The position numbers and the translations under genes were made by a program. A DNA stretch of 64,000 nt, from the NCBI RefSeq assembly GCF_032854445.1, contig NC_088299.1, positions 9,853,608-9,917,607 of the forward strand. Reading direction: 5' to 3'. The stretch's first letter is position 1. Each line of letters begins with the position of its first letter. The stretch comes from Liolophura sinensis (lineage: Eukaryota; Mollusca; Polyplacophora; Chitonida; Chitonidae). This document shows, piece after piece, positions 12,385 through 60,079 of the stretch. The notes below the pieces were generated by a model, which saw only the letters and a program-made list of their open reading frames with translations, did no database searches and was not told the origin of the DNA.

Positions 12385-13650
12385 TGTGACATACAGATAT
12401 GCACACCATACTGGTAGAAACCATACAGATATGCACACCATACTGGCAGAAACCATACAGATATGCACACCATACTGGTAGAAACCATACAGATATGCAC
12501 ACCATACTGGCAGAAACCATACAGATATGCACATCACACTGGCAGAAACTGTACAGGTATGCACACCATACTGGCAAAAACCATAAAGATATGCACATCA
12601 TACTGGTAGAAACCATACACACATACACACCATACTGGCAGAAACCATACAGATATGCACACCATACTGGCAGAAACCATACAGATATACACACCATAAT
12701 GGTAGAAACCATACAGATATGCACATCATACTGGTAGAAACCATACAGATATGCACATCATACTGGCAAAAACCTTACAGATATGCACATCACACTGGTA
12801 GAAACCATACAGATATGCACACCATACTGGTAGAAATCATACTGATATGCACACCATACTGGTAGAAACCATACAGACATGCACACCATACTGGTAGAAA
12901 CCATACATATATGCACATCACACTGGTAGAAACCATACAGATATGCACACCATACTGGCAGAAACCATACAGATATGCACACCATACTGGTAGAAATCAT
13001 ACAGATATGCACATCATACTGGTAGAAACCATACAGATAGGCACACCATACTGGTAGAAACCATACAGATATGCACATCACACTGGTAGAAACCATACAG
13101 ATATGCACACCATACTGGTAGAAACCATACAGATATGCACATCATACCGGTAGAAACCATACAGATAGGCACATCACACTGGTAGAAACCCTACAGATAC
13201 GAACATCACACGAACAGAAACCATACAGATATGCACACCATACTGGTAGAAATCACACAGATAGGCACATCATACTGGTAGAAACCACACAGTTATGCAC
13301 ACCATATTGGTAGAAACCATACAGATATGCACACCATACTGGTAGAAACCATACAGATATGCACATCATACTGGTAGAAACCATACAGTTATGCACACCA
13401 TATTGGTAGAAACCATACAGATAGGCACATCACACTGGTAGAAACCATACAGATATGCACATCATACTGGTAGAAGCCATACAAATATGCACATCACACT
13501 GGTAGAAACCATACAGATATGCACATATGCACATCACACTGGTAGAAACCATACAGATATGCACATCACACTGGTAGAAACCATACAGATATGCACATCA
13601 CACTGGTAGAAACCATACAGATATGCACATCATACTGCTAGAAGCCATGT
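12385..13650. repeat. 32-bp tandem array, about 39 units
   Basis: The unit is ACCATACAGATATGCACA followed by CCATACTGGTAGAA (32 bases). Units vary mainly at ACACC/ACATC, TACTGG/CACTGG and GGTAG/GGCAG. Because 32 is not a multiple of three, each frame cycles through the three readings every 96 bases. On the minus strand this stays free of stops, giving repetitive frames that are not genes. It lies between two convergent genes. Confidence 0.95.
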
Positions 13651-21000: not shown

Positions 21001-24000
21001 CTGGAAGTAAAACAGACAAACAGCCCAAAAGTCCAACTGTATCTGTAACTCACCACAGGGAAGTAATGTACTAAGTTTTGATTCAACACTTGAACCATTT
21101 GGAAGGAAAGTCTGGGGAACTGTCCAGAGCAGGTCAAATATAACCATTATCTTGTTGAAAATGAATGAAACAACCCAAAAGCTGTCATGGTGAATCTATG
21201 CACCAAGTTTCAAGTCACTATGGAGAACTACTTTCAAAATAATTTTGCTTAAATGCGAAAAAAATACTAAAGTGAAATGTCAAATGAAAGACAACTAAAC
21301 ACTTTTCATAAAAGTAGTTTGACTAATTTTTTTTAGAACCTTTTCAACCAAATAAAATACATTCAAAAGTTTGAATCCTGTGGTGGCCTTTCCTGACAAT
21401 ACTGGGACCAGTGACATTACATCATGTTTTTGTCGCTTAGAGTGCTACATTTCATCATCAAAAATGCAAATTAATGTAGATTTTTGAATAAATTTGTGAC
21501 GTCACTGATACCCTCTGCTTCACTACGGATCATAGTATAATCAGATTTTGTCAAACCATTTTATGCGATGGGAAAAATTCTAAAAAAAAAAAAAATCACA
21601 CTATATTCTTGGACAGTTTTTAATGGTATTTCATCTGACATATGATCCATTTTGGTGTTTCCTTTACTTTTAATTGATTTGTTCTTTCCTGCACCAGCAA
21701 CGCACAAATAAAAGCCGGTGAACTTGTCCTCATTGTGAAGAGAAAATACAAGTGAAAATGCACGAAAGATTCATCAAAACTTAAACATACAATGTCATAC
21801 ATGGAGACAAAATCAGTAAAACCTTTAACACTCAGGTGGCAAGACAAATCAAATGTGAACAGTGAATTGTTCAACATCAACAACACACAAACACCAAGTT
21901 CAAACAGTGACATTTTTTCCAACGTACCTCTACACTTAGAACGCCTGAAATTTGACAAACTTCTATCCGGGCCCTTTGTAATTTGTTGTTTGCCGCAAAG
22001 AGAACATTTGGTGACCTATAAAACAACATACACTACATTACATGTATAAAACAATATAATTCCCCATCTGTCAAAATTTTCATTATAATTAATATTTGCA
22101 TTATTTCTCAAAAATAAATGTACCCCATTCTCATAGAAGTTTTTGTATTCATTAATAAAAAAAAACAGTTATTGATGTTCACTGCATTTCAATTTGATGA
22201 GGCAGACAGTTGGACTACACATACACTAATTCGTTAACCTTGTCGCACATGAAAGAGCAACTTTCAGTACAATTTATGCACATTTTTAATTTAATTTTGG
22301 AGACAAAACTACAATAGTTGGATTGACCTCTTTCAGGGCTTCACAAAAAGCATAAGTTTTTCAGTGTGCTGTAATTCTTCAACATTTTCGGTGTTTATTT
22401 AAGCAATTTCCAAAGGCATTTTTCTGTGTTGACTGATCAAATCATACTTTTTGTGAAGCCCTGAATCTGGCCAATCCAACCAATGTAGTTTTGTCTCCAA
22501 AATTAAATTAAAAATGTGCATAAAATGTACTAAAAGTTCCTCTTTTATCTGCGAAAAGGTTGAAGAATTTGGGTATACAGTTTAATGCCTTCAGAATATG
22601 CTTGAATAAACATCTTGCAAACATGCCAAAAGGTTGAAAAATAACAGTACATGAACATTGTTTAAAATCATTTTCAGTTTCTAATTTTTAAATTGCTACC
22701 AAAACCAAACACACAACATGCTGACAGAGAACATTTGCTGGATGTCTGATGTTACACATGTACATGTACTACCAAAACCAAACACACACCATGCTGACAG
22801 AGAACATTTGCCGGATGTCTGATGTTATGCATGTACATGTGCTACCAAAACCAAACACACACCACGATGACAGAGAACATTTGCTGGATGTCTGATGTTA
22901 CACATGTACATATGCTACCAAAACTAAACACACACCACGATGACAGAGAACATTTGCTGGATGTCTGATGTTACACATGTACATGGACTACCAAAACCAA
23001 ACACACACCACGCTGACAGAGAACATTTACTGGATGTCTGATGTTACACATGTACATGTACTACCAAAACCAAACACACACCACGCTGACAGAGAACATT
23101 TGCTGGATGTCCAATGTTACACGTATACATGTACTACCAAAACCAAACACATGCCAAGCTGACAGAGAACATTTGCTGGATGTCTGATGTTACACATGCA
23201 CATGTACTACCAAAACCAAACACACACCACGCTGACAGAGAACATTTGCTGGATGTCCAATGTTACACGTATACATGTACTACCAAAACCAAACACACAC
23301 CACGCTGACAGAGAACATTTGCTGGATGTCTGATGTTACACATGCACATGTACTACCAAAACCAAACACACACCACACTGACAGAGAACATTTGCTGGAT
23401 GTCCAATGTTACACGTATACATGTACTACCAAAACCAAACACATGCCAAGCTGACAGAGAACATTTGCTGGATGTCTGATGTTACACATGTACATGTACT
23501 ACCAAAACCAAACACACACCACGCTGACAGAGAACATTTGCTGGATGTCTGATGTTACACATGCACATGTACTACCAAAACCAAACACACACCACGCTGA
23601 CAGAGAACATTTACTGGATGTCTGATGTTACACATGTACATGTACTACCAAAACCAAACACACACCACGCTGACAGAGAACATTTGCTGGATGTCCAATG
23701 TTACACGTATACATGTACTACCAAAACCAAACACACACCACGCTGACAGAGAACATTTGCTGGATGTCTGATGTTACACATGCACATGTACTACCAAAAC
23801 CAAACACACACCACAGTGACAGAGAACATTTGCTGGATGCCTGATGTTATGCATGTACATGTGCTACCAAAACCAAACACACACCACGCTGACAGAGAAC
23901 ATTTACTGGATGTCTGATGTTACACATGTACATGTGCTACCAAAACCAAACACACACCACGCTGACAGAGAACATTTGCTGGATGTCTGATGTTACACAT

Positions 24001-27000
24001 GTACATGTGCTACCAAAACCAAACACACACCACGATGACAGAGAACATTTGCTGGATGTCTGATGTTACACATGTACATATACCACCAAAACCAAACACA
24101 CACCACGCTGACAGAGAACATTTGCTGGATGTCTGATGTTATGCATGTACATGTGCTACCAAAACTAAACACACACCATGCTGACAGAGAACATTTACTG
24201 GATGTCTGATGTTACGCATGTACATATGCTACCAAAACCAAACACACCATGCTGACAGAGAACATTTACTGGATGTCTGATGTTACACATGTACATGTGC
24301 TACCAAAACCAAACACACACCACGCTGACAGAGAACATTTGCTGAATGTTTGATGTTACACATGCACATGTACTGCCAAAACCAAACACACACCATGTTG
24401 ACAGGGAACATTTGCTGGATGTCTGATGTTACACATGTACATGGACTACCAAAACCAAACACACACCATGCTGACAGAGAACATTTGCTGGATGTCTGAT
24501 GTTACACATGTACATGTACTACCAAAACCAAACACACACCAGAGTGATTGAGAAGACTTGCTGGATGTCTGATGTTACACATGTACATGTACTACCAAAA
24601 CCAAACACACACCAGAGTGATTGAGAAGACTTGCTGGATGTCTGATGTTACACATGCACATGTACTGCCAAAACCAAACACACACCATGTTGACAGGGAA
24701 CATTTGCTGGATGTCTGATGTTACACATGTACATCGACTACCAAAACCAAACACACACCACAGTGACAGAGAACATTTGCTGGATGTCTGATGTTACACA
24801 TGTACATGTGCTGCCAAAACCAAACACACACCACACTGACAGAGAACATTTACTGGATGTCTGATGTTACACATGTACATGTGCTACCAAAACCAAACAC
24901 ACACCATGCTGACAGAGAACATTTGCTGGATGTCTGATGTTACACATGTACATGTGCTACCAAAACCAAACACACACCATGCTGACAGAGAATATTTACT
25001 GGATGTCTGATGTTACACATGTACATGTACTACCAAAACCAAACACACACCACACTGACAGAGAACATTTGCTGGATATCTGATGTTACACATGTACATG
25101 TACTACCAAAACCAAACACATACCACACTGACAGAGAACATTTGCTGGATGTCTGATGTTATGCATGTGCATGGATGACCATAACCAAACACATACCATG
25201 CTGACAGAGAACATTTGCTGGATGTCCAATGTTACACATTTACATGGACTACCAAAACCAAACACACACCACGATGACAGAGAACATTTGCTGGATGTCT
25301 GATGTTACTTGTATACATGTACTACCAAAACCAAACACACACCACGCTGACAGAGAACATTTGCTGAATGTTTGATGTTACACATGCACATGTACTGCCA
25401 AAACCAAACACACACCATGTTGACAGGGAACATTTGCTGGATGTCTGATGTTACACATGTACATGGACTACCAAAACCAAACACACACCATGCTGACAGA
25501 GAACATTTGCTGGATGTCTGATGTTACACATGTACATGGACTACCAAAACCAAACACACACCAGAGTGATTGAGAACACTTGCTGGATATCTGATGTTAC
25601 ACATGTACATGGACTACCAAAACCAAACACACACCATGTTGACAGGGAACATTTGCTGGATGTCTGATGTTACACATGTACATATACTACCAAAACCAAA
25701 CACACACCACGCGGACAGAGAACATTTGCTGGATGTCTGATGTTACACATGTACATGTGCTACCAAAACCAAACGCACAACACGCGGACAGAGAACATTT
25801 GCTGGATGTCTGATGTTACGCATGTACATGTGCTACCAAAACCAAACACACACCACGCTGACAGAGAACATTTGCTGGATGTCTGATGTTACTTATGTAC
25901 ATGAAGCTTCATATTAGCTTGCTGAATTACAATTATGGCTCAACACCTCTAAAGATTGTCTTTAAGACGGTGGTGGTTTAAGTATTCAATGGCTTTTATT
26001 TCATAAAATGCAGTCCAGGGTGTGTCTTAACAAATAAAAATCACCAAATTAACCTTCACTGTCTAGTTCTATGGGGTAAAAGCGGCTTTAAACTGCAAAG
26101 TCCTCCAAAACCTCCAGCTCTAAGACTTAGTCTGGAGATTAAGTACCCGGCTTTCAAGATGAATTCATCTGAAGTTATCTTGCTTTACTGGAAATCTATT
26201 ACAATTTAAACCTGCACAAAGTAATTATCATAAATAATAATCATAATTGGCTAATTTCTGTACTGTAGCTGCTTAAGGGGCCTTAGCCGTAATAACATGA
26301 ACATTGAACAACGCATAAGTGGCTGCTTGTGTTCTTCACAGTGAAAACCACTTGTCTTCCACCAATATTGTCTGCATATCCCTACTTTGTCACATATGGG
26401 GATTTGTGAAAAGTCCCTACTTCACATATGGGGATTTGTGAAAAATCCCTACTTCACATACGGGGATTGTGAAAATCCCTATTTCACATATGGGGATTGT
26501 GAAAAATCCCTACTTCATATATGGGGATTGTGAAAAATTCTTAAATGTGGCATTAACTAACAATCCAATAAAATAAACAGTAATCATGATCAAGTTTTGG
26601 ACTTCTTCTTGTCCAAAATTTATACTATAAAAGTTAAAAATCTGTTCAGGACATGATGAGCCTGTGCTGTGAATGTCTCACCATTTGTGTTGTACTCCTT
26701 CTGTACAATGACAACCAGCTTTGCTTCCATCTACCCAGGGGGACGTTGCTTCCTACAGGCTTGAAATGCACTTGAGACTGCGCTAACTTTGGTCTGTACC
26801 TAACAGTGACAGAATCTGGGTTGTCCAGAAAACACTCACCGCAGAACGGACAGACGGACATGCTCTTCTGACTCGGGGCTGACAATATTACACAGAAAGA
26901 AGTTAAATTCCTGTAAGTGGTTGTTGAATAAGCACTTATAACAACCCTTTGTTTAACATCCTTTACAGGTGCTCCTACAGGTTAAGCACAGTTCTGTACA

Positions 27001-27883: not shown

Positions 27884-28344
27884 CTACACCACAAACACAA
27901 ATGGAAAAACATATAATACACATAATTTGTTAATATAAACACACTTCCATCCAGTTTTACTAAATGAGTCCATTTTCAAAAAATAAAAAAAGTTTCACAA
28001 TACTGACTACCTTTGAATCCATCCAGAGGAAGAATAAACTTTCATACCATTGAAACTTTGCAAATATGGACACTTTCCCTAACATACCATTGATTCTCCC
28101 CCAATACCCCAACCCATTTCCCTGCTGCTTAACGGAATTTCATCACAGCATGTCACCAAGTACGTTGTGGACATAGTCCCATTGTCTAGCAAAGATGTGG
28201 GCTGCCTGTTTCTGGAGAATGAAGGAATCAGCTTATGTGATGTGGCGGGATGACGACAATTCATAGAGGAACAGAAGCGGGTTTACAACAAACACAGACA
28301 GCACCCAGTTATTTAGGATACACGCGCATAATTCCCGCAAATGG
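27884..28344 (-). other. Upstream flank of the zinc-ribbon gene; possible 5' UTR exon
   Basis: On the minus strand a 61-codon frame (28264-28079) runs into CAATG-GTATGT, which could be a splice donor with exon end near 28089. Its phase does not fit as coding sequence before exon 1, so if used it would be 5' UTR. No promoter motif was recognised. Confidence 0.2.
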
Positions 28345-31300
28345 GACCAAGGGTAATCTCCAAACTGAAGCAGTACTGGGGCTATGATTAGACAATACTG
28401 GGCCAAAGTTTATCTCCAAACTGAAACAGTACTCGGGCTCTGATTGGACAATACTGGACCAAGGTTTATCTCCAAACTGAAGCAGTACTGGGGCTCTGAT
28501 TGGACAATAGTGGACCAAGGCCTATCACCAAACTGAAGCAGTACTGGGGCTCTGATTAGACAATACTGTACCAAGGTTTATCTCCAAACTGAAGCAGTAC
28601 TGGGGCTCTGATTAGACAATACTGTACCAAGGTCTATCTCCAAACTGAAGCAGTACTGGGGCTCTGATTAGACAATACTGGACCCAAGTCTATCTCCAAA
28701 CTGAAGCAGTACTGGGGCTTTGATTAGACAATACTGGACCAAGGTCTATCTCCAAACTGAAGCAGTACTGGGGCTCTGATAAGACAATACTGGACCAAGG
28801 TTTATCTCCAAACTGAAGCAGTACTGGGGCTCTCATTAGACAATACTGGACCAAGGCCTATCACCAAACTGAAGCAGTACTGGGGCTCTGATTAGACAAT
28901 ACTGGACCAAGGTTTATCTCCAAACTGAAGCAGTACTGGGGCTCTGATTAGACAATACTGGACCAAGGTTTATCTCCAAACTGAAGCAGTACTGGGGCTC
29001 TCATTAGACAATACTGGACCAAGGTTTATCTCCAAACTGAAGCAGTACTGGGGCTCTCATTAGACAATACTGGACCAAGGTTTATCTCCAAACTGAAGCA
29101 GTAGTGGGGCTCTCATTAGACAATACTGGACCCAGGTCTATCTCCAAACTGAAGCAGTACTGGGGCTCTCATTAGACAATACTGGACCAAGGTTTATCTC
29201 CAAACTGAAGCAGTACTGGGGCTCTCATTAGACAATACTGGACCAAGGTTTATCTCCAAACTGAAGCAGTACTGGGGCTCTCATTAGACAATACTGTACC
29301 AAGGTTTATCTCCAAACTGAAGCAGTACTGGGGCTCTGATAAGACAATACTGGACCCAGGTCTATCTCCAAACTGAAGCAGTACTGGGGCTATGATTAGA
29401 CAATACTGGACCAAGGTTTATCTCCAAACTGAAGCAGTACTGGGGCTCTCATTAGACAATACTGGACCAAGGTTTATCTCCAAACTGAAGCAGTACTGGG
29501 GCTCTGATTAGACAATACTGGACCAAGGTTTATCTCCAAACTGAAGCAGTACTAGGGATCTGATTGGACAATACTGGACCAAGGTCTATCTCCAAACTGA
29601 AGCAGTACTGGGGCTATGATTAGACAATACTGGACCAAGGTCTATCTCCAAACTGAAGCAGTACTGGGGATCTGATTGGACAATACTGGACCAAGGTCTA
29701 TCTCCAAACTGAAGCAGTACTGGGGCTCTCATTAGACAATACTGGACCAAGGTTTATCTCCAAACTGAAGCAGTACTGGGGCTCTCATTAGACAATACTG
29801 GACCAAGGTTTATCTCCAAACTGAAGCAGTACTGGGGCTCTCATTAGACAATACTGGACCAAGGTTTACCTCCAAACTGAAGCAGTACTGGGGCTCTCAT
29901 TAAACAATACTGGGCCAACGTCTATCTCCAAACTGAAGCAGTACTGGGGCTCTGATTAGACAATACTGGACCAAGGTTTATCTCCAAACTGAAGCAGTAC
30001 TGGGGCTCTCATTAGACAATACTGGGCCAAGGTTTATCTCCAAACTGAAGCAGTACTGGGGCTCTCATTAGACAATACTGGACCAAGGTTTATCTCCAAA
30101 CTGAAGCAGTACTGGGGCTCTCATTAGACAATACTGGGCCAAGGTCTATCTCCAAACTGAAGCAGTACTGGGGCTCTCATTAGACAATACTGGACCAAGG
30201 TCTATCTCCAAACTGAAGCAGTACTGGGGATCTGATTGGACAATACTGGACCAAGGTCTATCTCCAAACTGAAGCAGTACTGGGGCTCTCATTAGACAAT
30301 ACTGGACCAAGGTTTATCTCCAAACTGAAGCAGTACTGGGGCTCTGATAAGACAATACTGGACCCAGGTCTATCTCCAAACTAAAGCAGTACTGGGGCTC
30401 TCATTAGACAATACTGGACCAAGGTCTATCTCCAAACTGAAGCAGTACTGGGGCTCTGATAAGACAATACTGGACCAAGGTTTATCTCCAAACTGAAGCA
30501 GTACTGGGGCTCTCATTAGACAATACTGGACCAAGGCCTATCACCAAACTGAAGCAGTACTGGGGCTCTGATAAGACAATACTGGACCCAGGTCTATCTC
30601 CAAACTGAAGCAGTACTGGGGCTCTCATTAGACAATACTGGACCAAGGTCTATCTCCAAACTGAAGCAGTACTGGGGCTCTGATAAGACAATACTGGACC
30701 AAGGTTTATCTCCAAACTGAAGCAGTACTGGGGCTCTCATTAGACAATACTGGACCAAGGTTTATCTCCAAACTGAAGCAGTACTGGGGCTATGATTAGA
30801 CAATACTGGACCAAGGTTTATCTCCAAACTGAAGCAGTACTGGGGCTCTCATTAGACAATACTGGACCAAGGTCTATCTCCAAACTGAAGCAGTACTGGG
30901 GCTCTGATTAGACAATACTGCGCCAAGGTTTATCTCCAAACTGAAGCAGTACTGGGGCTCTCATTAGACAATACTGGACCAAGGTCTATCTCCAAACTGA
31001 AGCAGTACTGGGGCTCTCATTAGACAATACTGGGCCAAGGTTTATCTCCAAACTGAAGCAGCAGCGGGGCTATGATTAGACAATACTGGACCAAGGTCTA
31101 TCTCCAAACTGAAGCAGTACTGGGGCTCTCATTAGACAATACTGGACCAAGGTTTATCTCCAAACTGAAGCAGTACTGGGGCTCTGATTAGACAATACTG
31201 GACCAAGGCTTATCTCCAAACTGAAGCAGTACTGGGGCTCTCATTAGACAATACTGGACCAAGGTTTATCTCCAAACTGAAGCAGTACTGGGGCTCTCAT

Positions 31301-31800
31301 TAGACAATACTGGACCAAGGTCTATCTCCAAACTGAAGCAGTACTGGGGCTCTCATTAGACAATACTGGACCAAGGTTTATCTCCAAACTGAAGCAGTAC
31401 TGGGGCTATGATTAGACAATACTGGACCNNNNNNNNNNNNNNNNNNNNNNNNNNNNNNNNNNNNNNNNNNNNNNNNNNNNNNNNNNNNNNNNNNNNNNNN
31501 NNNNNNNNNNNNNNNNNNNNNNNNNNNNNNNNNNNNNNNNNNNNNNNNNNNNNNNNNNNNNNNNNNNNNNNNNNNNNNNNNNNNNNNNNNNNNNNNNNNN
31601 NNNNNNNNNNNNNNNNNNNNNNNNNNNNTGGACCAAGGTCTATCTCCAAACTGAAGCAGTACTGGGGCTCTCATTAGACAATACTGTACCAAGGTTTATC
31701 TCCAAACTGAAGCAGTACTGGGGCTTTGATTACACAATATTCAACCAAGGTCTATCTCCAAATTTAAGCAGTACTGGGGCTCTGATTAGATAATACTACT
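28345..31800. repeat. 56-bp satellite array, about 60 units
   Basis: The unit is CTCCAAACTGAAGCAGTACT, GGGGCTCTCATTAGACAATA and CTGGACCAAGGTTTAT (56 bases). Variation is limited to a few sites: CTCTCATTAGA/CTCTGATTAGA/TATGATTAGA, GGTTTAT/GGTCTAT and GGACC/GGGCC. Edge units (28.35-28.5 and 31.7-31.8 kb) are more diverged. It lies between the divergent zinc-ribbon and FA2H genes and contains an assembly gap. Confidence 0.97.
31429..31628. other. Assembly gap, 200 N
   Basis: Exactly 200 N inside the 56-bp satellite. The round number suggests a scaffold gap of estimated or placeholder size, so the true array length is unknown. Confidence 0.98.
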
Positions 31801-33879: not shown

Positions 33880-34149
33880 ATGTCTGTCATTACAGCCGGC
33901 ATAATTAAACAGCTCGTGAAAATCGGGCGGCTGTGCGTGGTGGAATCTGGGAAAGTTTACGATGTGACGGATTTCGCAGAAAGACACCCTGGCGGCGCAG
34001 ACAAAGTGGCGAGTAATGTTGGGAAAGACATCACGGAGATTCTGAAGGATGTGAAATCTCATAAGCACACCTCCAACGCTTATTCCATCCTAAAACAGTA
34101 CTATATCGGCGAATACGAAATAGAAGGCAAACACGGCGGCAAATCACAG
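33880..34149 (+). CDS. FA2H: FA2H exon 1, cytochrome b5 domain
   Basis: Ninety codons, residues 1-90, ending CAG before the donor GTAGGT. It contains VYDVTDFAERHPGG and KQYYIGEY. The whole haem domain is in one exon, separated from the catalytic part by a 17-kb intron. Confidence 0.95.
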
Positions 34150-49100: not shown

Positions 49101-52100
49101 GTATGTTTTTTCATTTACATACATATTAATCTGAAAAATAGTTCTTTTTGTCGCAACTTCAGGCAAATATCTGAAGGCACTACGAAGATGAATCAACACA
49201 ATTGGAATGTAGCGAAATTAAAATAAATAATGTACATGTATATAAACGAAATTACCTACAACATGTCAGTTATGAATTGATCAGAAATGGTCAAATTCCA
49301 ATTAGTATATATTTGTCAGGAAGCCTGAATCCTTTTACATCGTTGCATACAGAATGGCAACCCCAAATGAAATTTGTGTTCCGTAATAAATTAATTTCTT
49401 AAAGAGGCAAAGAAATTTTTGTCAAAAAATCCATTTTAGTTTATCAAATCAAATTATGGGGAATGTATTTACCAAGAATAGCTTAAATTATTAATTTTAG
49501 TAATTATCAGATTCATAAACAGATGGACTGTTTACTGTATTAAAATGCTTTTAAAGTTTAAAAAAGGTATATTACAACCTGCTTTTATAAATTTTAGGAA
49601 CTTTTTACTGATTTGAATAGTTATACATGTACATGCACAAACAAGGGACATGTTATCGAAAGATTGAAAAATCACATGACAGATTTGAAAAAAAAAAAAA
49701 CAATTATATCCTGTATAAATGTATTTGAAACTTCAACTTCTGTACGTGTATCTCTTTTAAAGTCATCAATGATATCTCATAAATTACATGTACACAGCTC
49801 TCGTATATTCATTACATCAGTTGATTCAATATTAACACGGTCATAGAAGGTTCTCCCAAGATTTTTTCACTTAAATCTGATATTGCATACAACTGTACAT
49901 ACTTTTCAGATGTTTTAGAAGAAAACCTAAGAAATTATTGACATTCTTAGCACTGAAAGCATTTGGAACTATATATTTGGTCATCGAAATCTACATGCAT
50001 GATGTTATGCTGTTTTGGTTTACAACTTACATCCAGCATTGGGTTATCTCCATCCCTGTATTATATACACATTGCATGTCAAAGGCTCTTATTGCCTGAC
50101 ATACAACATGTTACACTGTACCACTATCTGACACACCTCATACAACATGTTACACTGTACCACTGTCTGACACACCTCATACAACATGTTACACTGTACC
50201 ACTGTCTGACACATTTCATACAACATGTTTCACTGTCACCACTGTCTGACACACCTCATACAACAAGTTACACTTTACCACTGTCTGACACACCTCATAC
50301 TGTACCACTGTCTGATAAACTTCATACAACATGTTACACTGTTACCACTGTCTTTCGGTGTCTTTGAAACACAATTTTGACAAAATTAACATGGCAGAGA
50401 TAAGGAAAGTAGTAGAAAATTTTAAACTGAAATGCCCTTGTTTCAAATTCTGGCTAAAACTGTATGTTACAGTAGATATCTTCCCAAAATCAGCATTGTA
50501 ATGAGAGAGAGGGGTATGTGTAGAGTGCATCCATGTCTAAAATTTGGCCCATGTCTAAATTGGACGTTTTGTTGTTTTGGAACGTTCTGTTGGTCTTAAA
50601 AAGGTGTTTTGAAGTTTGCTTAAAAGATAGAACGATAACCTACTTGCAAAAAGTTTCAGGCCCATAATTATATTTTATGCCGGGGCCTCCGTGGCTCAGT
50701 TGGTTAGTGCTCTAGCGCAGCATAATGACCCAGGAGCCTGTCACCATTGCGGTCGCTGTGAGTTCAAGTCCACCTAATGAGGGCTTCCTCTCCGGCCGTA
50801 CGTGGGAAGGTCTGCCAACAACCTTTTTCAACGTGCGGATGGTCGTGGGTTTCCCCCGAGCGCTGCCCGGTTTCCACCCACCATAATACTGGTGGCCGTC
50901 GTATAAGTGAAATATTCTTGAGCATGGTGTAAAACACCAATCAAATAAATAAATAAATAAATATTTTATGCCTTTGAAAATGCAAATATTTATTTGAAAT
51001 TTGAAATCATTTATGGTATTCAGGATGTAGTTCTGCATTCTTTATTCCAAGGTTGTCACAAATCCTAGTGTTGACCTCTATGTCTTTACATGTAGTACAT
51101 GCTGGTCTGTGACTGTTGCACATGTTTAAATGCTGACTCTGATTTTGTTTATTTGCAGGGCGACTGTACATCTACTAATGAAGAAGTCACCAATAACAAT
51201 GATGGAAGCTGTTTGTTTGAGGTTAGTGTTTTTCAGTGTGTGTGTAGTCTGATGTGACCTGTGTCCTGTATTTACTTAACATTTGGCATTTTTTCCATGG
51301 CATATTTTGCCTATTCCCTGTTGATCATTGGCCGGATGTGGCCATGTACATGTGCACGTATATACGCGTTTTTATGAAAACTTACGAGTTGGCATCAAAA
51401 ATACCTGAACAGGTATTTAGAATTGGAGAAGGAGGTCAGAGTTGAAAAGTAGGCAGATAAATTGAATGTAATTGTGTCAGAATACTGTTGATTTAAATAG
51501 TAATAATGTTCAGAGTAGGCGGTTACAAGGACAGCAGTAAACAGCTGTCTGCAACCTGCTACTTGCCCTTTGTGAACATAAGTGCATAAGTCATTTTAAG
51601 GCCTCTAAGCGCTTGTGAAAGTGCATTTTAACACAATAAACTTTAGATGAAATATGGGATTTGTGGTGTAACATGTACAGCTGCATTGACGGTATGCTGC
51701 AATACAGCATGGGTGTGACTTCAGTCTAATACAATCCTGACTCAAATGCCAATGCTGCAAATGCTGCAAATGTTTGTATCATTTATACTGATAAATAAAT
51801 GCTGTATGACTCAGGAAAGGAATTTTGAGGTGTTCCAATAATAGTTGCAGTATGCTGACAGGCACGTGTAGGAATTTCTGATATGTTACTGTTGGAATTG
51901 TTGGTATGAAAATTATGGTGACTGTATTATTAATACTGTACAGAAATTGCCGCAACATACCTGAAGCAATGATGGAATCTGCATGAAGTATGGAAGATTT
52001 TTAAAAAACTGCATGTCAGAAATAATTGTAAAGCCTGCATGCATTCACTGTGCCTATGCCAAATTATTTATCCCTGGTTCATAACTGTTGCAAAAATGTG

Positions 52101-53518
52101 CTTCATTTAGGTGTAAACAATTTAGATTGAAATTTCAGGGCCTCTGTGGCGGAGGGGCTGACTACGCCAGCATGGCACAATGACCCAGGAGACTCCCACC
52201 AATGAGGCCCTTATGAAGTCCAGCTCATGCTGGCTTTTTCTTTGGCTGTACAGGAGAAGGTCTGCCAGCAACCTGTCTATTGTCCTAGGTTTTCCCCAGT
52301 TTCCTCCCACTATTATTCTGGCCACCGTTGTATAAGTGAAATATTCTTGAGTACGGCATAAAACACCAATCATATAAATAAATAAATAGATAAATATATC
52401 CATTTCAGTCTGTAAGGTATGTTAACATTGATGGGTTTTTACTGTAGGTTTATGGCTAGTGGTTGTTGTTGCACTTGTATACTTAATAGATGTGGCCTGA
52501 AACCCGATATACACGTATCTATGATATTTGTTTGCCTCAGAAAAACCCAGTAACCACAGTGTCTAGTGCTCCAGATAAGGGGCTATGTGTATGTTACACA
52601 CCCTGAAAATGACCAAAATGTTAAGGAAAACATAAATGTACCAAATAAGCCTACAAAACGCGATGGATATGGGAGATAACTCTGTGTGGGTAAAACTGTG
52701 CTCATGGCAGCTACTCCTTTCCATTGCAATGATGACACTTCCAACTGGTCCATGCGAGTTGCAGTCACTTAATAGTTTGTTTGCAATAATACTGTTTTTG
52801 TTACCCTAATTTCTCAACCTTTTCATATTTGAAAGAGCAGCTTTCAGTGCAGTTTATGCACATTTATAATTAGATTTTGGAGACAAAAGTTGTGGCAGAG
52901 TGACTAATATCTTAAAGTGCTGGACAGGTTAAAACCTGATCTAAGGAATTTGTAGATTAGCAGATTCCTCCGCACTCTGTTGTGGGGCCTTGGTGACACC
53001 GTCCTTTGTATCACCTGTACATGTATTCCACAGATATGATGTGCATACCTATAGGTCACATGTGGCAAAGTCTGTCAGTAGCTCGCCAAAGGTCTGTGGT
53101 TTATGGCAGGCACTCTAGTTTTTTCCATTCATAAAAGTGACCTCCATCCTCTGGGTGAACAATGGTTTAGTTTGGCATTAGACAACAGTTAGTCAGATAA
53201 TAAATAAAAAAAAAATAGATGCATGATAGGTTATTTATTTATTTATTTAATTGGTGATTTACGCTGTACTCAAGAGTATTTCACTCATACAACGGCGGCC
53301 AGCATTATGGTGGGTGGAAACTGGGCAGAGCCTGGGGGAAACCCACGATCATCCGCAGGTTGCTGGCAAACCTTCCCACGTACGGCCGGAGAGGAAGCCA
53401 GGAGAGGAAGGACTTGAACTCACAGCGGCCGCATTGGTGAAAGACTTCTGGTCATTGCGCTGTGCTAGCGCACTAACCAGCTGAGCCACGGAGGCCTCGA
53501 TGCATGATAGGTAAATAG

Positions 53519-53560
<42 letters not shown>

Positions 53561-56500
53561 TAATTATCATGTTTTATCTCAGGACGAGATGGTGGACTGG
53601 AGCAAGCCGCTCATGTGGCAAGTGGCGGATCTGAAGGAGAAGTATTTTGACTGGGTGCATCGTCCTGTGGATCGGCAAATCAGGCTGTTCAAGTCAGACC
53701 TAGTGGAGTACTTCTCCATGTGCTCGTGGTACATTGTGCCAATGGTCTGGTGTCCCGTGGCAGCCGTCTTCACCTGGCTGAGCTACCAGAGGCTGAGCTC
53801 TGGAGAATGTGTGTGGAGGACTCTGTTTGGAAGTAAGTGATCCTAAACCACAGCTATTGTACATAGTAGCAAGTAAGTAAACCCCAACTACATATGACCA
53901 TGTTTGATAAAATTTTGTTCGCATATTTCTTTGTTCTGTGATCCTCATTGGTCATTGGTTTCCCTGTAATACTTGTTTCAAATCTTGTCTGATTTTGATA
54001 ATTATTTATGTACACATTCATTTTGTGGCTGCTCCTTGCACATATTTTGCGTATTTAGTGCAAGATCAATCACTACCTGACAAAGCGAACGGTTCACTCT
54101 CTGTATCCGTTTTGTTAACAGTTTCTTCCGTGGCACTGATTTCACCCTTTATATATTTGGCTTATGCAGATGTCCAACTAACAGAGAAGTACCTGCCAGT
54201 GTTCATTGCTTTTGGGGCTTTGTGCTGGACATTGGCCGAATACATCATCCATCGATGGCTCTTCCACCTTCAGCCTCCGGCCAACTGTCCATTGCTCATA
54301 CAGTTTCATTTCCTCATGCATGGGCAGCATCACAAGGTAAGTGGCTGATAGCTGTTCTCAGCTCATACAGTTTCATTTCTTCCTTCATGGGCAGCATCAC
54401 TAGGTAAGTTGCTGATAGCTGTTCTCAGCTCATACAGTTTCATTTCTTCCTGCATGCACAGCATCACTAGGTAAGTCGCTGATAGCTGTTCTCAGCTCAT
54501 ACAGTTCCATTTCTTCCTGCATGGGCAGCATCACAAGGTAAGTTGCTGATAGCTGTTCTCAGCTCATACAGTTCCATTTCTTCCTGCATGCACAGCATCA
54601 CAAGGTAAGTGGCTGATAGCTGTTCTCAGCTCATACAGTTCCATTTCTTCCTGCATGCACAGCATCACGAGGTAAGTGGCTGATAGCTGTTCTCGGCTCA
54701 TACAGTTCCATTTCTTCCTGCATGCACAGCATCACGAGGTAAGTGGCTGATAGCTGTTCTCGGCTCATACAGTTCCATTTCTTCCTGCATGGGCAGCATC
54801 ACGAGGTAAGTCGCTGATGGCTGTTCTCAGCTCATACAGTTTCATTTCCTCATGCATGGACAGCATCACTAGGTAAGTTGCTGATAGCTGTTCTCAGCTC
54901 ATACAGTTTCATTTCCTCATGCATGGACAGCATCATGAGGTAAGTGGCTGATAGCTGTTCTCAGCTCATACAGTTCCATTTCTTCCTGCATGCACAACAT
55001 CACAAGGTAAGCTGTTGACAACTGTCCACGGCTCGTGCAGTTCTATTTTCTTGTGCATGGACAGCATCACAAGGTAACCCGTTGACAACTGTAAACTGCT
55101 TTTACAGTTCCAGGCAGTGTTTTGCTGGTTAGTGATACCAGGTTACAAGACCCTGTCGAACAGAGCAGTATCTTTCTCACCCTAGTGAAGACCACAAAGT
55201 GGAGAAAACTAACCACCAGCCTTTGGCAAGAACTCAAAAATTTCCCAAATTTGAGAATTGTCCCAATATGAGGCCCAAGTTTTCACCAGTGGAGCACAAT
55301 GAAGGCCTACATGTAGTGCCATATTGTTGGAAGACAAGTGGTAATGAGCTAACTTCATGTAAAACCACACAAAGAAGCGCTACTTCTTCAGGCTTGACCA
55401 GATACAATGACTTAAAACCAGAGAGCATGGGATGTACTGGAATCTGCAAGAACACCCCAACTGGATAATGTGACATGAACGATCTTGGGCAGTTTTATTC
55501 ATCATTAATCGTACGTCTATTACCCTGATGCACTTGTTCTACATGTATTACCCACTGGTTACATATTTCACTGGTCACATGATACAGTAGGTTTTTCTTT
55601 ACCTTCGATGATAAGAGTTTGAACTCGAGACTTTCCTATTGCAAAGCTCACTGAGGCTATCAGACCCTTGACCTTGATTTCAGCTCTTGTCATTTCTGCT
55701 GTGGGTGCAGATGGGATACATGAATATAATGAAGGTTAATGGTTTCCTCTGGTTTCCTCTATCTGTATAACTTAAATTGTGACTTCAGTCCCAAGAGAAA
55801 CCAGGTGGGTATGTTAAAATGATATGAAGAACACCCTGTGGAAGAGGGCTAACAACATGGGTAAAAAGGATTTAACATGAGTAACACTCAAAAACAAAAT
55901 CTCACGTAGTTTCCCTAAAGTTTCCTGATGTGAGGTGATAATGTCATGACAAATTGGGCAGATGGGATGTGGAGTAAGGCAGTAATGCTTGAATGACATC
56001 ACTAGTGTTTGAAAATGCGGCATGATTTGGGGTTATATGTCAGCGATGAGTGACGCCAAATGTTCTGCATGACATCAAACCATGCAACCATGGAAACAAC
56101 AGAAAACTTTCGTTTTTGTATTGTCCTCTGAAACTAACAATCCCAGTTTAAGTACAGTGTAATTTTTGTACAATTTTTTGTAAATATTCAGACTACCTCG
56201 ACCCTTATCAGGTCACGCTGCTTTTAAGATGTGAACATTTTGACACTGGAGTAGCTATTTAACGACACATATATATGGGCAGTCAAATAAATAAATTATT
56301 TATTTATAGCACGCATATTTTGGAATGCTTTGTCTTGTTGCTGATTTCAGACTCCAATGGACAAACGCCGGCTTGTCTTTCCCCCTGTCCCTGCCTCAGT
56401 TCTTGGATTCCTCATTTACCTGGTTTACTCAGTGCTGTTTGTGGAGGGGATATGTTTCGCCATGATGGCTGGCTCCGTGATCGGCTATTTGATGTATGAC

Positions 56501-59500
56501 CTGACGCACTACTTCCTTCACCATGGCACGCCCACTTCCAACTACTTCAAGGAACTTAAAAGATATCATGTCATGCACCACTATGTGGATCAGCAGAATG
56601 GTAGGTATCGGTTTATTGGTCATCTCCCTGTGTCTGGGTATTGATTGTGGGGTGGGGGATCATATACTGTAAAGTACGTACTATTCGCTGGAATTTATTT
56701 TTCATGGATTTTCTCCAAAAATATGTTCGCAGGAATTAATTTTCGTGTATTTTGAGAGAATAATGAAGAACAAATCTTAAATTTTCAGAAATATAATATG
56801 GCCGAAATTATTCTAGCACATCAAACAGGTATCATCATGGGTAGCTTTAATTTTCCTACGTTTCCTGCGGTGTCGCTAATCCTCGTGATCTGGATCAGAG
56901 ATTAAAACAATGGGGGATGGATTATCACTACTTAAGAAGATTACTTTCGCACCTACTGTGGCAGTACTCAAATAGGTGTCTTCTTTTCGAATCATTGACG
57001 CCCGATAAAAACACCTAGCAAAGTGACCTGTCACATTTAGAGCAGTTCAACGCAAAACATATGAAATCACCATTATCGACGCCAGTCACTCATTCTTTAT
57101 CAAGTAACACAGTAAGTTTTGACAGCACGTGCTGGTATCTACTTTTCTTTCACTTTACGGGCATAGTGAAGATTGATCAAACTAAAGATGAATGAACTCC
57201 CACTTTGTTTTATACCCACCTAGCCTTAACACCAAGAGTTTGTATATATTCAAACCATAATTTCCATCCCTGCTTTCAAAAAAAATTCATCTGGCCCATC
57301 AGGCTTTATTAGCGCAACTCCCGTCACCCTGACAAAGATTTCACTTCAGTATTACTACTATCTGTAGTACGTGATTCAAAATTGCATATTTTTTTCGCTG
57401 GAATTATTTTTCGTGGTAAATTATTGACCACCAAAGCCGCAAATATTAGTTCCACGCGAAAATTAAGTACTTCACAGTAATGTAGATATACACTCCAGTT
57501 TTTTCTTTGTGGGGGGGGAGGTTCAACCAAGTGATTTGAAGCTTAACCAGGAAGAGTTACAGTTGGAGTTCAAGTTTGTTCATTCTCAAGCAAGATTTTG
57601 GCCTTTCTTGTGACCTGTATGTTTTGGACTTTTTCTGGCTGTTTCAAACGGTTCATTGTGTTGGATTGAAATTTGGTACATGGCTTCACAGTCAAACATT
57701 ACAGGCTGAGTTAGAGTTTCAGGCCTTTTCATCGATTTTTGACAAATTTATGGTCATTTGTCTGTTGTTGCGGACGTCTACGTAACTATATTATTGTGAC
57801 GGCTTAAACCTGTAGCGGACCTGTACTGCAGATAAATTCAGAATGCCCCTTAGCTCGCCGATACTGTGTAGCTTTTGTTATACCCTGAGTGTGGAGTCCA
57901 ATAACAGAGGAAGCTATGTTAAAGTGAAAGACAGCATGTGACTAATGTTTATGTCCATTGAAAGCCAACCATGCAAAGTAACTTAAACGGGTATTAAATA
58001 TTTTTTTCAACCCAGTAAAAGTTTAGTGAAACTTTGTCTTGAAACAGCTTTCGCGCGTCTCTGTTATCAAGATCAACGCGATGTCATGTTTACTCTAGCT
58101 CTCTAACATGGAAGGTATTTTTTTTTTGTATAATAGACTAAGCAGTAGCCTATGGCAGATAAAAGTTGCAGACTTTGGCAATGAAGGCCCTAGTGATAAA
58201 TATAGTTTTCTCAGAAACTGGACAAACTAGAAGAATATTTCTTCAACTACTTGATCTACTATATCATTTACAAAGACCTCCACTGTTTAAATAGCCTAGC
58301 TGCAGATGCACGGCCAGAGTATTCTTTGATCAGATCATAGCCTCCGAAGGGGTTGTGCAGGGGATTTTGACCCTTATTAAATGTTTACAAAATTACAACA
58401 GGATTATTGTACATTTGCAACTAGATTTATGCTCAGTTCTGAAACAAATGGAAATAAATCTAAGCACCACTGGGGCTGATCTAGACATTTGACGGTTGCT
58501 GGATTTTATGCTTCAGCTTTGTAGCGATGGCTTCTAAGATGAAAGCAATGCTGACCTAGTTATCGCAAATGTCCGAGAAAGCACCTCAGCTTGAATACAA
58601 AGCCATCATTTCAATAACATTTACTCTTATTTATTTTATAAAAGAAAACCGAAAACACATCCCTTGTATCCGAGTAAGACGAAGGAGCAAAATTTTAATT
58701 CTTCAGCTGTAATAAATTCAGAGCAAAAAAATGATATCATTAGATTTAATTAATTTTAAGCATTGTCTGGCGAGACAACATCTCCTCATTCCCATAAACT
58801 TTCAACATCCCTAATGAATTTTGCACTGACTGTGCATGGTATTTGTTATTTAGAAACTTCTGACTAAACGCTAAAATGAAGGACAAAAAATGTATTTGGG
58901 GAGATGAGTGTTTTTTGGGCCGAGACGGTATGCAACTGTCTGGGATAATTAAAAAATAATAATAATAAAATATTTGTGACACCATAGTTGAATATTACAC
59001 GGCTTGTGAATCAACTGATTTTATGTCTGTGGTGGTTCGTAAAAGATACAGATGTGTCCCACAACACTTTGTGAAATGGCGCTTCAGCTACACGTAACTA
59101 AATCGTTGGAAATGATCTCAAAATGATGTCTTATGCAGTATTTTTTTGTTATCATATGTCACTTCATGGAGTGAATGGGTAAAGGCTGTGCCATGCCTTA
59201 GGCCGTACAATGATAGCATCGTGTTAGACTGGATAGAATTCTCAAGATGGCTGCTTCGAGACCAGCCATTTGTGCAATATTGTGACTTTGTTCTACATGT
59301 TATTCGGTGAAATCTCATTAAAATAATAAAGTATGATACCTTTTAGAAAGCTTGAGTATCCTGCTTTCGATTGAAATATGTTTAGCCAGGTGCTGTCTAG
59401 TCCTTTAAACAAAACGTTAGGGGTGGGGTCTTTAAAAAATACTGTCGATATTGAGATCAGGGTTTACACACATATAGAGCACAATAACACGAGGGGGGAT

Positions 59501-60079
59501 ATTCCATCGTTGACTCGGTGTATATATTGAATACCATAAATTACTGAATTCCTGACAATAGTGTATTGTGTATTAGAATAAATGTTAAACAAAATGTTAG
59601 GGGTCTTATCTCAAAAAGTACTGCATATATTGAGCTGAAGTTTTACATGCAGAAAAAAAACACAGTGATACAAGGGGGATGTTCCATCACTGATGTTCTT
59701 TGTACATACAGGTATATCTATTACCGTAAATTACCAAATTCATAATTTTAGTACTTAATGTATTGAGCTGAAGTTTTGCATCCATGTGTCTCCTACAGGC
59801 GAGCTATTTGATTCCTTGTTGCCAAATCTAAGTTAATTCAAATGATTATGTACACATTTCTGCAGTTTATTTCACAGTCCTATATTTGTGTGTTAGGAAA
59901 CAGAGCTAACCCCATGAAAACCCCTGTGGCACTGTACCAAGTGTAGACACTTTTCCAGGTATATCAGGTGTACCTTCAATAGTCTTCACATATACTACTT
60001 CTTGTTTGCAGGCTTTGGAATCTCAAGCAAGATTTGGGACTACCCATTTGGAACCATCATTCGTGATAAAGAAGAATAA
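33880..60079 (+). CDS. FA2H: Fatty acid 2-hydroxylase, six-exon gene
   Basis: An ER membrane enzyme that adds the 2-hydroxyl group to fatty acyl chains used for ceramides and other sphingolipids. Exons 33880-34149, 51159-51221, 53583-53832, 54170-54336, 56351-56600 and 60012-60079 join in phase to 355 residues (human 372 from memory). The N-terminal cytochrome b5 domain (about 8-80) has haem-binding HPGG (36-39) and a second histidine in HTSNA (H63). A short polar linker (91-111) leads to the family signature MVDWSKPLMWQV. The fatty-acid-hydroxylase domain carries the di-iron histidine motifs HRWLFH, HGQHH, THYFLHH and YHVMHH, with hydrophobic segments near 155-180, 200-215 and 265-300. The C-terminus GFGISSKIWDYPFGT matches vertebrate FA2H, followed by a short charged tail. 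No catalytic residue appears missing. Confidence 0.96.
37375..37570 (+). repeat. Dispersed repeat (counterpart at 8.9 kb)
   Basis: GAAACTGAAATTACTAAGTG, TACTTTGAACTGTTGCCAAT, AAAGCAGCTTCAGCCGCATA and AAAGGCCACTGGTCTTGG follow the same order as the copy at 8890-9110. Confidence 0.5.
38718..38975. repeat. About 44-bp tandem repeat, 6 units
   Basis: The unit is TGTTGCCCTAGAACAAAATT, CACCTGTGGTTATATTACCT and GACG. The first two units carry CACCCTGTGATTACATTACC instead. Confidence 0.92.
39594..39730 (+). mobile_element. Family 2 SINE, 3' half
   Basis: Contains CTTGCGGATGGTTGTGG, TTAATGCTGGCTGCCGTCGT and TTTCTTGAGTATGGCATAAA, then an AAATAAATA tail. Confidence 0.75.
40925..41250. repeat. Dispersed repeat with internal duplication (counterpart at 59.4 kb)
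   Basis: ATTAAACAAAAGGTTAG, GCATATATTGAGCT, TTAAACAAAATGTTAGGGTG, GAGGATGTTCCTCCTCTGAT and the ATTACCATAATTACCAAATT block recur in the same order at 59375-59790. Within the element the TTAAACAAAA...TTGAGCT block occurs twice. Confidence 0.6.
43590..44160. repeat. Diverged tandem duplication, about 3 units of about 200 bp
   Basis: AAGCTGTGA(C/A), TTCATCCA/TTCACCCA, GCTG(G/T)ACTGGGTAAAATACA and AGGTGAAAT(A/G)AA recur with indels. The similarity is clear between the first two units and partial in the third. Confidence 0.5.
44530..44805. mobile_element. MITE-like element with GGGCCATATCTAGA terminus
   Basis: It begins AGGGCCATATCTAGAAAAAG and ends GGCTCTAGACATGGCCAGG, an inverted terminal repeat of about 14 bases with mismatches. 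The body matches the copy at 6445-6731. A weaker relative (ATGCTTTCTGGGAGTTTATA, TTGCTCTAGATTTGACC) lies at about 41730-41920. Confidence 0.65.
44835..44990. repeat. Fragment of foldback family
   Basis: TTTGAGGGCTTCACAAAAAA, then GCATATGCTTGAGTAAACAC and AGGTTGAAGAATTACAGTAT, match arm and loop sequence of the elements at 22.2 and 10.4 kb. Confidence 0.55.
46247..46346 (+). mobile_element. Family 2 SINE, 3' end
   Basis: Contains the CACCGTAATGCTGGCCGCCG block, then AGTAAAGTATTCTTAAGTAC and a GGTAAATA-type tail. Confidence 0.7.
46912..47016 (+). mobile_element. Family 2 SINE, 3' end
   Basis: GATGGTCGTGGGTTTCTGAG, TCCCACCATAATGCTGGCCG and ATATTCTTGAGTACGGCATA are present; it stops at CTCCGATCAA without a clear AAATA tail. 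Confidence 0.75.
50098..50350. repeat. 39-bp tandem repeat, about 6 units
   Basis: The unit is CATACAACATGTTACACTGT, then ACCACTGTCTGACACACCT. One unit near 50290 is shortened. The unit length, divisible by three, leaves a repetitive frame open, which is not a gene. Confidence 0.92.
50682..50965 (+). mobile_element. Family 2 SINE, full length
   Basis: The head GGGGCCTCCGTGGCTCAGTT, GGTTAGTGCTCTAGCGCAGC and B-box-like GTGAGTTCAAGTC are tRNA-like. The body has CCGGCCGTACGTGGGAAGGT, and the tail is four AAAT units. It lies about 200 bases upstream of FA2H exon 2. Confidence 0.92.
51159..51221 (+). CDS. FA2H: FA2H exon 2, linker (residues 91-111)
   Basis: The acceptor is GTTTATTTGCAG and the donor is GTTAGT. 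The 21 codons encode polar, asparagine-rich sequence (TSTNEEVTNNNDG) between the b5 and hydroxylase domains. It is poorly conserved in the family, so this exon rests on phase and splice sites. Exons 1 and 3 would also be in phase without it, so it could be skipped. Confidence 0.75.
52136..52392 (+). mobile_element. Family 2 SINE, near full length
   Basis: It starts CAGGGCCTCTGTGGCGGAGG, has AATGACCCAGGAGACTCCCA and ends TACGGCATAAAACACCAATC plus AAATA repeats. It lies in FA2H intron 2. Confidence 0.9.
52800..52885. repeat. Fragment of foldback family
   Basis: TTTCTCAACCTTTTCATATT, GAAAGAGCAGCTTTCAGTGC and TTTATGCACATTTATAATTA, then TTTTGGAGACAAAA, match the left arm of the element at 22240. 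Confidence 0.65.
53228..53499 (-). mobile_element. Family 2 SINE, full length, reverse orientation
   Basis: On + it reads TTATTTATTTATTTATTTAA, CGGCGGCCAGCATTATGGTG and GCGCTAGCGC-like sequence, ending CTGAGCCACGGAGGCC. The bases TGCATGATAGGT on both sides (53220-53231 and 53501-53512) look like a target-site duplication. Confidence 0.92.
53524..53558. repeat. (TA)n microsatellite beside FA2H exon 3
   Basis: About 17 TA units within the polypyrimidine/branch-point region of the exon 3 acceptor. Confidence 0.95.
53583..53832 (+). CDS. FA2H: FA2H exon 3, start of hydroxylase domain
   Basis: The acceptor TTTTATCTCAG precedes and the donor GTAAGT follows. It encodes MVDWSKPLMWQV, the EKYFDWVHRPV block and the first hydrophobic region. 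A 35-base TA microsatellite lies only about 25 bases upstream of the acceptor. Confidence 0.96.
54170..54336 (+). CDS. FA2H: FA2H exon 4, first histidine motifs
   Basis: It encodes EYIIHRWLFHL and FHFLMHGQHHK, then the donor GTAAGT. An in-phase AG fifteen bases in (CTAACAG) could serve as an alternative acceptor, dropping five residues. The last 33-45 bases and the donor are the source of the 67-bp tandem array that follows. Confidence 0.94.
54337..55073 (+). repeat. FA2H: 67-bp tandem array copied from FA2H exon 4 end and its splice donor, 11 units
   Basis: Immediately after the exon 4 donor, eleven units of exactly 67 bases follow (737 bases, no indels). Each runs GTAAGTGGCTGATAGCTGTT, CTCAGCTCATACAGTTTCAT, TTCTTCCTGCATGCACAGCA and TCACAAG. 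GTAA donors therefore recur at 54337, 54404, 54471, 54538, 54605, 54672, 54739, 54806, 54873, 54940, 55007 and 55074. The second half of each unit duplicates the coding end of exon 4 (CTCATACAGTTTCATTTCCT...CATCACAAG). Confidence 0.97.
55775..55885 (+). repeat. Dispersed repeat fragment (counterpart at 1.5 kb)
   Basis: GACTTCAGTCCCAAGAGAAA, ATGATATGAAGAACACCCTG and TGGAAGAGGGCTAACAAC match the copy at 1480-1670. In FA2H intron 4. Confidence 0.5.
56351..56600 (+). CDS. FA2H: FA2H exon 5, remaining histidine motifs
   Basis: The acceptor is CTGATTTCAG and the donor is GTAGGT. It encodes RRLVFPPVPAS, a membrane segment, DLTHYFLHHGTP and YHVMHHYVDQQNG, the second half of the di-iron site. Confidence 0.96.
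56601..60011 (+). other. FA2H: FA2H intron 5, 3.4 kb
   Basis: No supported gene. A segment near 56680-56760 (TTCGCTGGAATTTATTTTTC) is echoed in inverted, diverged form near 57390-57480 (CGCTGGAATTATTTTTCGTG ... CCACGCGAAAATTAAGTACT), suggesting a small inverted or duplicated element. The 59.4-kb dispersed repeat is the other recognisable content. Confidence 0.45.
59375..59790. repeat. Dispersed repeat, tandemly duplicated (counterpart at 40.9 kb)
   Basis: Two head-to-tail units: AACAAAACGTTAGGGGTGGG ... GGGGGGATATTCCATCGTTG, then AACAAAATGTTAGGGGTCTT ... GGGGGATGTTCCATCACTGA. Each continues into ATTACCGTAAATTACCAAAT-type sequence. Confidence 0.65.
60012..60079 (+). CDS. FA2H: FA2H exon 6, terminal
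   Basis: The acceptor CTTGTTTGCAG precedes GFGISSKIWDYPFGTIIRDK and a TAA stop at 60077-60079. The FGIS(S/T)K(I/L)WD block is typical of FA2H. Confidence 0.95.

Follow-up and report, generated by a model that had tools for sequence, protein, structure and literature searches.

A Minisatellite Spanning an Exon-Intron Boundary of FA2H in the Chiton Liolophura sinensis, and Similar Arrays at Other Exon Ends

Results and Discussion

In the 64,000-nucleotide stretch of the Liolophura sinensis genome examined in this study (hereafter the window), the end of the third coding exon of FA2H and the splice donor behind it are repeated in tandem through the first part of the following intron. This array is very probably a neutral splice-junction minisatellite, a type of repeat called a 'mirage' in lancelets, that is spliced out from the exon's own donor at 54337; a regulatory role is not needed to explain it. 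Other exon ends of this genome have probably undergone the same process. The class of repeat itself is known from the portions of the literature consulted, and what is new is its recurrence in a mollusc, at several genes of one animal.

Gene Model and Array Structure

The five-exon gene model, which has a predicted start codon, encodes 371 residues, and all four of its introns are of the GT-AG type. The spliced protein contains both Cyt-b5 (5.4e-17) and FA_hydroxylase (4.1e-18) domains above the Pfam cut-offs; this combination in one protein identifies the gene as FA2H, and the gene is intact. Yeast SCS7 matches the model at 1.1e-45, in an alignment that crosses the array-bearing junction. No extra FA2H coding exon turned up in a rough motif scan of the 34.1-53.6 kb interval, and the exon that had been numbered 4 in the original prediction is therefore the third coding exon here. 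Its end, FHFLMHGQHHK, carries histidines that we take to bind the metal pair of FA2H. The features of the gene and the array are as follows (window coordinates, all on the + strand).

33880..34149, +, FA2H coding exon 1 (cytochrome b5 domain; Pfam Cyt-b5 5.4e-17; predicted start codon)
53583..53832, +, FA2H coding exon 2 (GT-AG model; weak segment alignment to SCS7)
54059..54336, +, FA2H coding exon 3, 3' end ...LLIQFHFLMHGQHHK (alignment to SCS7 through THFLLHGCHHYLPMDK)
54294..54336, +, last 43 coding bases of exon 3, homogenised with the array (TRF start at 54294; mismatch counts against the units)
54337..56350, +, FA2H intron 3, 2014 bp, phase 0; 54337 is the putative single productive donor of twelve
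54371..55073, +, intronic exon-end copies, units 1-11, with a 67-bp period, each of 33 exon-like bp followed by a donor
54404..55075, +, the eleven later (decoy) donors, at 54404+67n; the first nine read GTAAGT, the last two GTAAGC (55007) and GTAACC (55074)
54974..55107, +, distal array edge: unit 10 with an old spacer and unit 11, the most diverged
56351..56600, +, FA2H coding exon 4 (gene model; SCS7 alignment)
60012..60079, +, last FA2H coding exon, with stop (gene model; SCS7 alignment)

Exon 3 ends in ...FHFLMHGQHHK at 54336 and is followed by GTAAGT, where 54337 is the G of the GT. TRF places the array at 54294-55077, with a period of 67, 11.7 copies, 92% matches and 0% indels. When the exon end is counted as unit 0, eleven intronic units of exactly 67 bp follow it in exact register, as originally predicted, and the twelve donors in a row that had also been claimed lie at 54337+67k (k=0-11), the last at 55074. 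The complete GTAAGT is present in 10 of the 12 donors, while the last two read GTAAGC and GTAACC, and a partial, degraded 12th copy lies behind unit 11. The predicted motif-end codons were likewise recovered when the units were read: CACTAG, a stop, in units 1, 2 and 8; CACAAG or CACGAG in units 3-7, 10 and 11; and CATGAG in unit 9. Eight of the 11 units are thus open, and their 33 nt are in frame with the phase-0 intron. A search of the 609-Mb assembly with the exon end returned at least 11 matches at a single locus, all inside the FA2H array; because this type of search evaluates just the top candidates, its counts are minimum values. Because the exon-end matches are confined to the array, the FA2H array is not a product of chance.

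Origin and History of the Repeat Unit

The 34-nt spacers between the exon-like segments align without gaps to the exon 3 sequence directly upstream of the last 33 coding bases. Over the last 25 bases, nine of the twelve spacers match the exon at 17 positions, one at 16, and the last two at 19 and 18, compared to a best match of 15/25 elsewhere in the window with the exon itself excluded. The closest to the exon (19/25) is the spacer that precedes unit 11. From these alignments, the founding unit probably joined about 58 bp from the end of exon 3 to 9 bp from the start of intron 3. The spacer is itself copied exon 3 sequence; the CATACAG 'acceptor' within the units is therefore most likely copied coding sequence of exon 3 as well and, since most of the unit is derived from the exon, the appearance of each unit as an acceptor, a mini-exon and a donor would be an accident of its origin.

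Units 0-9 are mutually 90-100% identical, compared to 75-84% identity between unit 10 and these units and 69-78% between unit 11 and all others (all identities were computed one base out of register); the lower identity of unit 10 is due to its old spacer. Within exon 3, similarity to the array has a seam at 54294, where units 1-10 show 2-6 mismatches per 43 bases downstream versus 8-9 per 16 upstream. Unit 11 shows the opposite pattern, with 8 mismatches in the last 43 bases and 5 in the 16 before. For unit 8, which is the most extreme, a Fisher test gives p=4e-5, a value that is illustrative because TRF set the seam from the same similarity. In addition, units 8 and 9 have the CTCATG form of the exon in common, and the other units are without it. 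The seam and the shared form suggest that the end of the exon and the array have exchanged sequence repeatedly. The array may have begun with one tandem duplication across the exon 3/intron 3 junction and would then have grown through slippage or unequal exchange.

Splicing and Coding Constraint

Each of the 11 later donors retains GTAAGTGGCTGA, which reads VSG-stop right after HHK (11/11), consistent with the truncation that had been predicted for intron read-through. Splicing of exon 3 presumably still proceeds from the donor at its own end (54337), which would be the only donor in use, and the array would be tolerated because it leaves with the intron. Splicing from a later donor would yield transcripts with a premature stop, which would presumably be degraded. 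It is conceivable that the decoy donors compete with 54337 and tune FA2H output by way of these degraded transcripts, and the completeness of GTAAGT in 10 of the 12 donors, together with the immediate stop behind all 11 later ones, would suit such regulated unproductive splicing. However, at least seven other genes of diverse function bear arrays of this kind (see below), and the mirages of lancelets are reported, in the portion of that work available, to leave regular splicing undisturbed (PMC3087553); regulation of this type is improbable. The related proposal that the array serves as a donor-choice buffer is not supported, given the VSG-stop that follows HHK at all 11 of the other donors.

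Splicing of the units as in-frame 33-nt mini-exons, each adding a second FHFLMHGQHHK segment, is more improbable still. The frame of the 33 nt relative to the phase-0 intron and the eight open units are compatible with it, as is the share of pyrimidines ahead of the acceptors in the units (0.63-0.69), which falls inside the range of the true FA2H acceptors (0.63-0.75), but three units contain stops and the acceptor is copied exon sequence. Furthermore, the distance from a donor to the next CATACAG is 34 nt, which is too short for an animal intron. The exon-like halves are also not less variable than the spacers: among units 0-9, variable columns make up 8/33 of the exon-like half versus 3/34 of the spacer (p=0.11), a small test whose direction is the wrong one for coding constraint. 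Counts of variation by codon position (4/1/7) are not significant in a similarly small test (p=0.11). Taken over the three stops, the codon positions and the variable columns, this small array of 12 copies of 11 codon-like triplets gives no sign of coding constraint, and the suggestion that the array is a source of 33-nt mini-exons was not borne out.

An exon-derived unit and the lack of a coding-constraint signal instead support a neutral minisatellite seeded at a splice junction. The original prediction had offered such a minisatellite as a 'young' one, and while its neutral, junction-seeded part stands, the argument for recency does not. That argument took the strict length of the units as a sign of recent expansion or constraint; however, ordinary arrays in the same window (73 bp x 44 and 56 bp x 55) also have 0% indels according to TRF, and the lack of indels in the FA2H array is therefore not special.

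Similar Arrays at Other Exon Ends

The genome was searched for paired donor words 18-27 bp apart, and 26 loci besides FA2H were read by eye, unblinded. The AGGTAAGT search contributed 12 loci from the best 100 of 111 matches, namely all 11 clusters among these and one single pair (L021), which has no TRF array. The AGGTGAGT search contributed 14 of the 17 clusters among the best 100 of 265 matches, with three near-copies of included arrays omitted. Among the 26 loci, the array starts at a protein-alignable exon in 7, at an open frame that is a possible exon in 8, and at nothing accepted as an exon in 11. The seven loci with protein-alignable exons are listed below.

L013, G000:C6:43585000-43589000, P-loop exon of a GTPase presumed to be of the GTPBP6/HflX type; donor-side units of 19 bp; with the exons joined by us, MMR_HSR1 matches across the junction (6.3e-11)
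L017, ABCB1-like, 22-bp units; match to ABCB1 at 6e-13 after joining of two exon pieces
L019, integrin alpha; 9.2e-10 for two joined pieces, with only a weak alignment of the boundary exon by itself
L028, SLC22; SLC22A1 5.2e-4
L031, UTP4-like; UTP4 5.1e-6, among better-scoring general WD40 matches
L032, G000:C5:14898100-14900900, SCAP, 108-bp units; 4.6e-8 over all 32 exon residues
L034, EML propeller; 2.2e-5, below the Pfam cut-off

In six of these seven loci, 7-71 exon bases are copied into the array (by script, best of three copies). At the SLC22 locus the script found no copied exon bases because the neighbouring copies read GC at the donor; the TRF array there starts about 15 bases inside the exon. 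The loci with an open frame alone at the array start are L010, L011, L014, L022, L025, L027, L029 and L030, and the script found no copied exon bases in L010, L011 and L014. Upstream pieces of L014 match choline transporter-like protein 1, but its boundary exon does not. Those not accepted by eye are L012, L015, L016, L018, L020, L021, L023, L024, L026, L033 and L035, where acceptance was a matter of judgement, as open frames enter the array in L016, L018, L023, L024, L026 and L035. Pfam at E 0.1 returned nothing for eleven pieces, among them both ABCB1-like pieces and the one from SLC22; for three further L014 pieces its matches were all weak and irrelevant (E 0.05-0.08).

Recurrence of the same architecture at other loci also bears on whether the FA2H array is an assembly or sequencing artefact. 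Tandem repeats are prone to error, and the coverage given in the available text for the published assembly is 14X (PMC11068029). Against this, the array spans 0.78 kb compared to HiFi reads averaging 8.3 kb (PMC11068029), and its units differ among themselves. There is only a very slight chance that the array is an artefact.

Three further observations concern the arrays at individual genes. The intron of L013 has arrays at both ends, one of 19-bp units on the donor side and one of 45-bp units that reaches the acceptor. The SCAP exon end is repeated in 108-bp units (x5.8), behind which come 23-bp units (x38); the array has apparently formed in two generations. Finally, a STING-like exon (L005, G000:C12:21361801-21365055) has repetitive translations about 0.65 kb downstream that likely represent a minisatellite.

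Are Donors Preferred Seeding Sites?

A more far-reaching interpretation would be that the splice donors of chitons are a preferred birthplace of minisatellites, that hundreds of exon ends continually exchange sequence with intronic arrays, that short coding segments such as the histidine motif of FA2H and the P-loop of GTPBP6 undergo concerted evolution with their decoy copies, and that the arrays feed new exons and introns. We consider this unlikely. Over the whole assembly, AGGTAAGT word pairs 18-27 bp apart number 111 compared to 195 for the pattern read backwards, and AGGTGAGT pairs number 265 compared to 116, so that for these two words and this spacing no consistent excess over reversed words was found. 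Pairs of the acceptor word TTTTGCAG number 82 compared to 46 reversed. None of the ten TTTTGCAG clusters, all of which were read by eye, forms an array that ends directly at an exon start, and in two of the acceptor-word arrays (L036 and L042) a likely acceptor lies within about 100 bp behind. By our own estimate, real acceptors are probably far rarer among the TTTTGCAG words, and because of this presumably low base rate the 0/10 result is no proof of donor preference. Similarly, the 15 arrays among the 26 loci that start at an alignable or possible exon could simply reflect the base rate of real donors among AGGTRAGT words. Neutral seeding anywhere, with survival also at junctions, is sufficient.

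Relation to Known Systems

As described in the available portions of two studies, lancelet mirages are minisatellite-like tandem duplications of an exon-intron boundary, for example in Adh3, the globins BflGb6/9, troponin C and PGBD5, with unit lengths of 10-160 bp, AG/GT signals present in many of the units, and an interior that is homogenised while the edges are not (PMC3087553, PMC3902484). Regular splicing was seen by RT-PCR (PMC3087553), and the Adh3 and globin data suggest that it is undisturbed, with cryptic use held possible (PMC3087553, PMC3902484). The FA2H array resembles these mirages as so described: its unit spans an exon-intron boundary (~58 bp of exon and 9 bp of intron), splice signals occur in many units (GTAAGT in 10/12 donors), and a concerted interior (units 0-9, 90-100% identity) gives way to a diverged edge (unit 11, 69-78%). 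Unlike the amphioxus examples, it is found in a mollusc, consists of 11 copies of 67 bp that are mostly of exon origin, and is known here from sequence alone. An Adh3 mirage was not found in this chiton: in the 10 kb with matched exons, the sole TRF minisatellite beyond short and two-copy repeats is 21 bp x 8, and some 190 bp separate it from the closest part of a matched exon.

Human segmental duplications, according to the accessible part of one report, contain internal tandem repeats at exon-intron boundaries that are able to change splicing (PMC2812944). The FA2H minisatellite likewise lies at such a boundary; however, the human repeats differ among recent paralogs and in some cases give rise to new introns (PMC2812944), whereas chiton FA2H is one gene copy seen at the level of its DNA. 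Intron gain by tandem genomic duplication, the AGGT model, is a recognised model in the text available (PMC3443670). As in that model, an exon segment carrying AGGT has been duplicated in FA2H, but there the new intron is made inside an exon (PMC3443670), while the FA2H copies sit inside an intron.

No mollusc report of splice-junction arrays was found in the open-licence literature, among the matches listed. The accessible portion of one chiton genome paper has no mention of 'tandem' (PMC11068029), and that of another has none of 'tandem repeat' or 'minisatellite' (PMC12005716). An intron minisatellite is known in abalone and, in the part of the paper available, is not placed at a splice site (PMC6905558). 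The present results carry a little-known class of repeats from lancelets and human duplicated genes into molluscs, and the many such loci in a chromosome-level assembly make two questions testable: how the spliceosome chooses among a dozen near-identical donors, and whether arrays of this kind contribute to intron and exon gain.

Other Observations in the Window and Assembly

The window is rich in minisatellites, of which TRF places those at 22696-25903 (73 bp x 44), 28344-31428 (56 bp x 55) and 12390-13648 (32 bp x 39) outside recognised exons. A dispersed repeat with translations like GGNWAEPGGNPRSSAGCWQTFPRTAGEEA occurs in the window at 15749-16060, 18145-18402, 50712-51041 and 52122-52421 (all on the - strand) and at 53208-53484 (+), and is also present in L010, L011, L016, L018 and L020; judging from its sequence, it is possibly a SINE-like element or another transposon fragment. 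Pfam at E 0.01 found nothing in nine further open reading frames of the window. An open frame of 238 residues at 11166-11879 (+), also without a Pfam match, could belong to an adjacent gene as one of its coding exons. Elsewhere in the assembly, contig C99 (108,685 bp; listed together with C632) contains seven copies of COX1 at intervals of about 15.5 kb, of which one is matched over a shorter length; it is a mitochondrial concatemer, probably produced in assembly. A lancelet origin of the assembly, which the mirage literature had suggested, was rejected. A GFP-family search returned no match, weak evidence by itself since its controls gave none either. Genes on the mitochondrial contig, named by eye, follow a molluscan order, with COX3-ND3-ND2-COX1-COX2-ATP6 on one strand and ND5-ND4-ND4L-CYTB-ND6-ND1 on the other.
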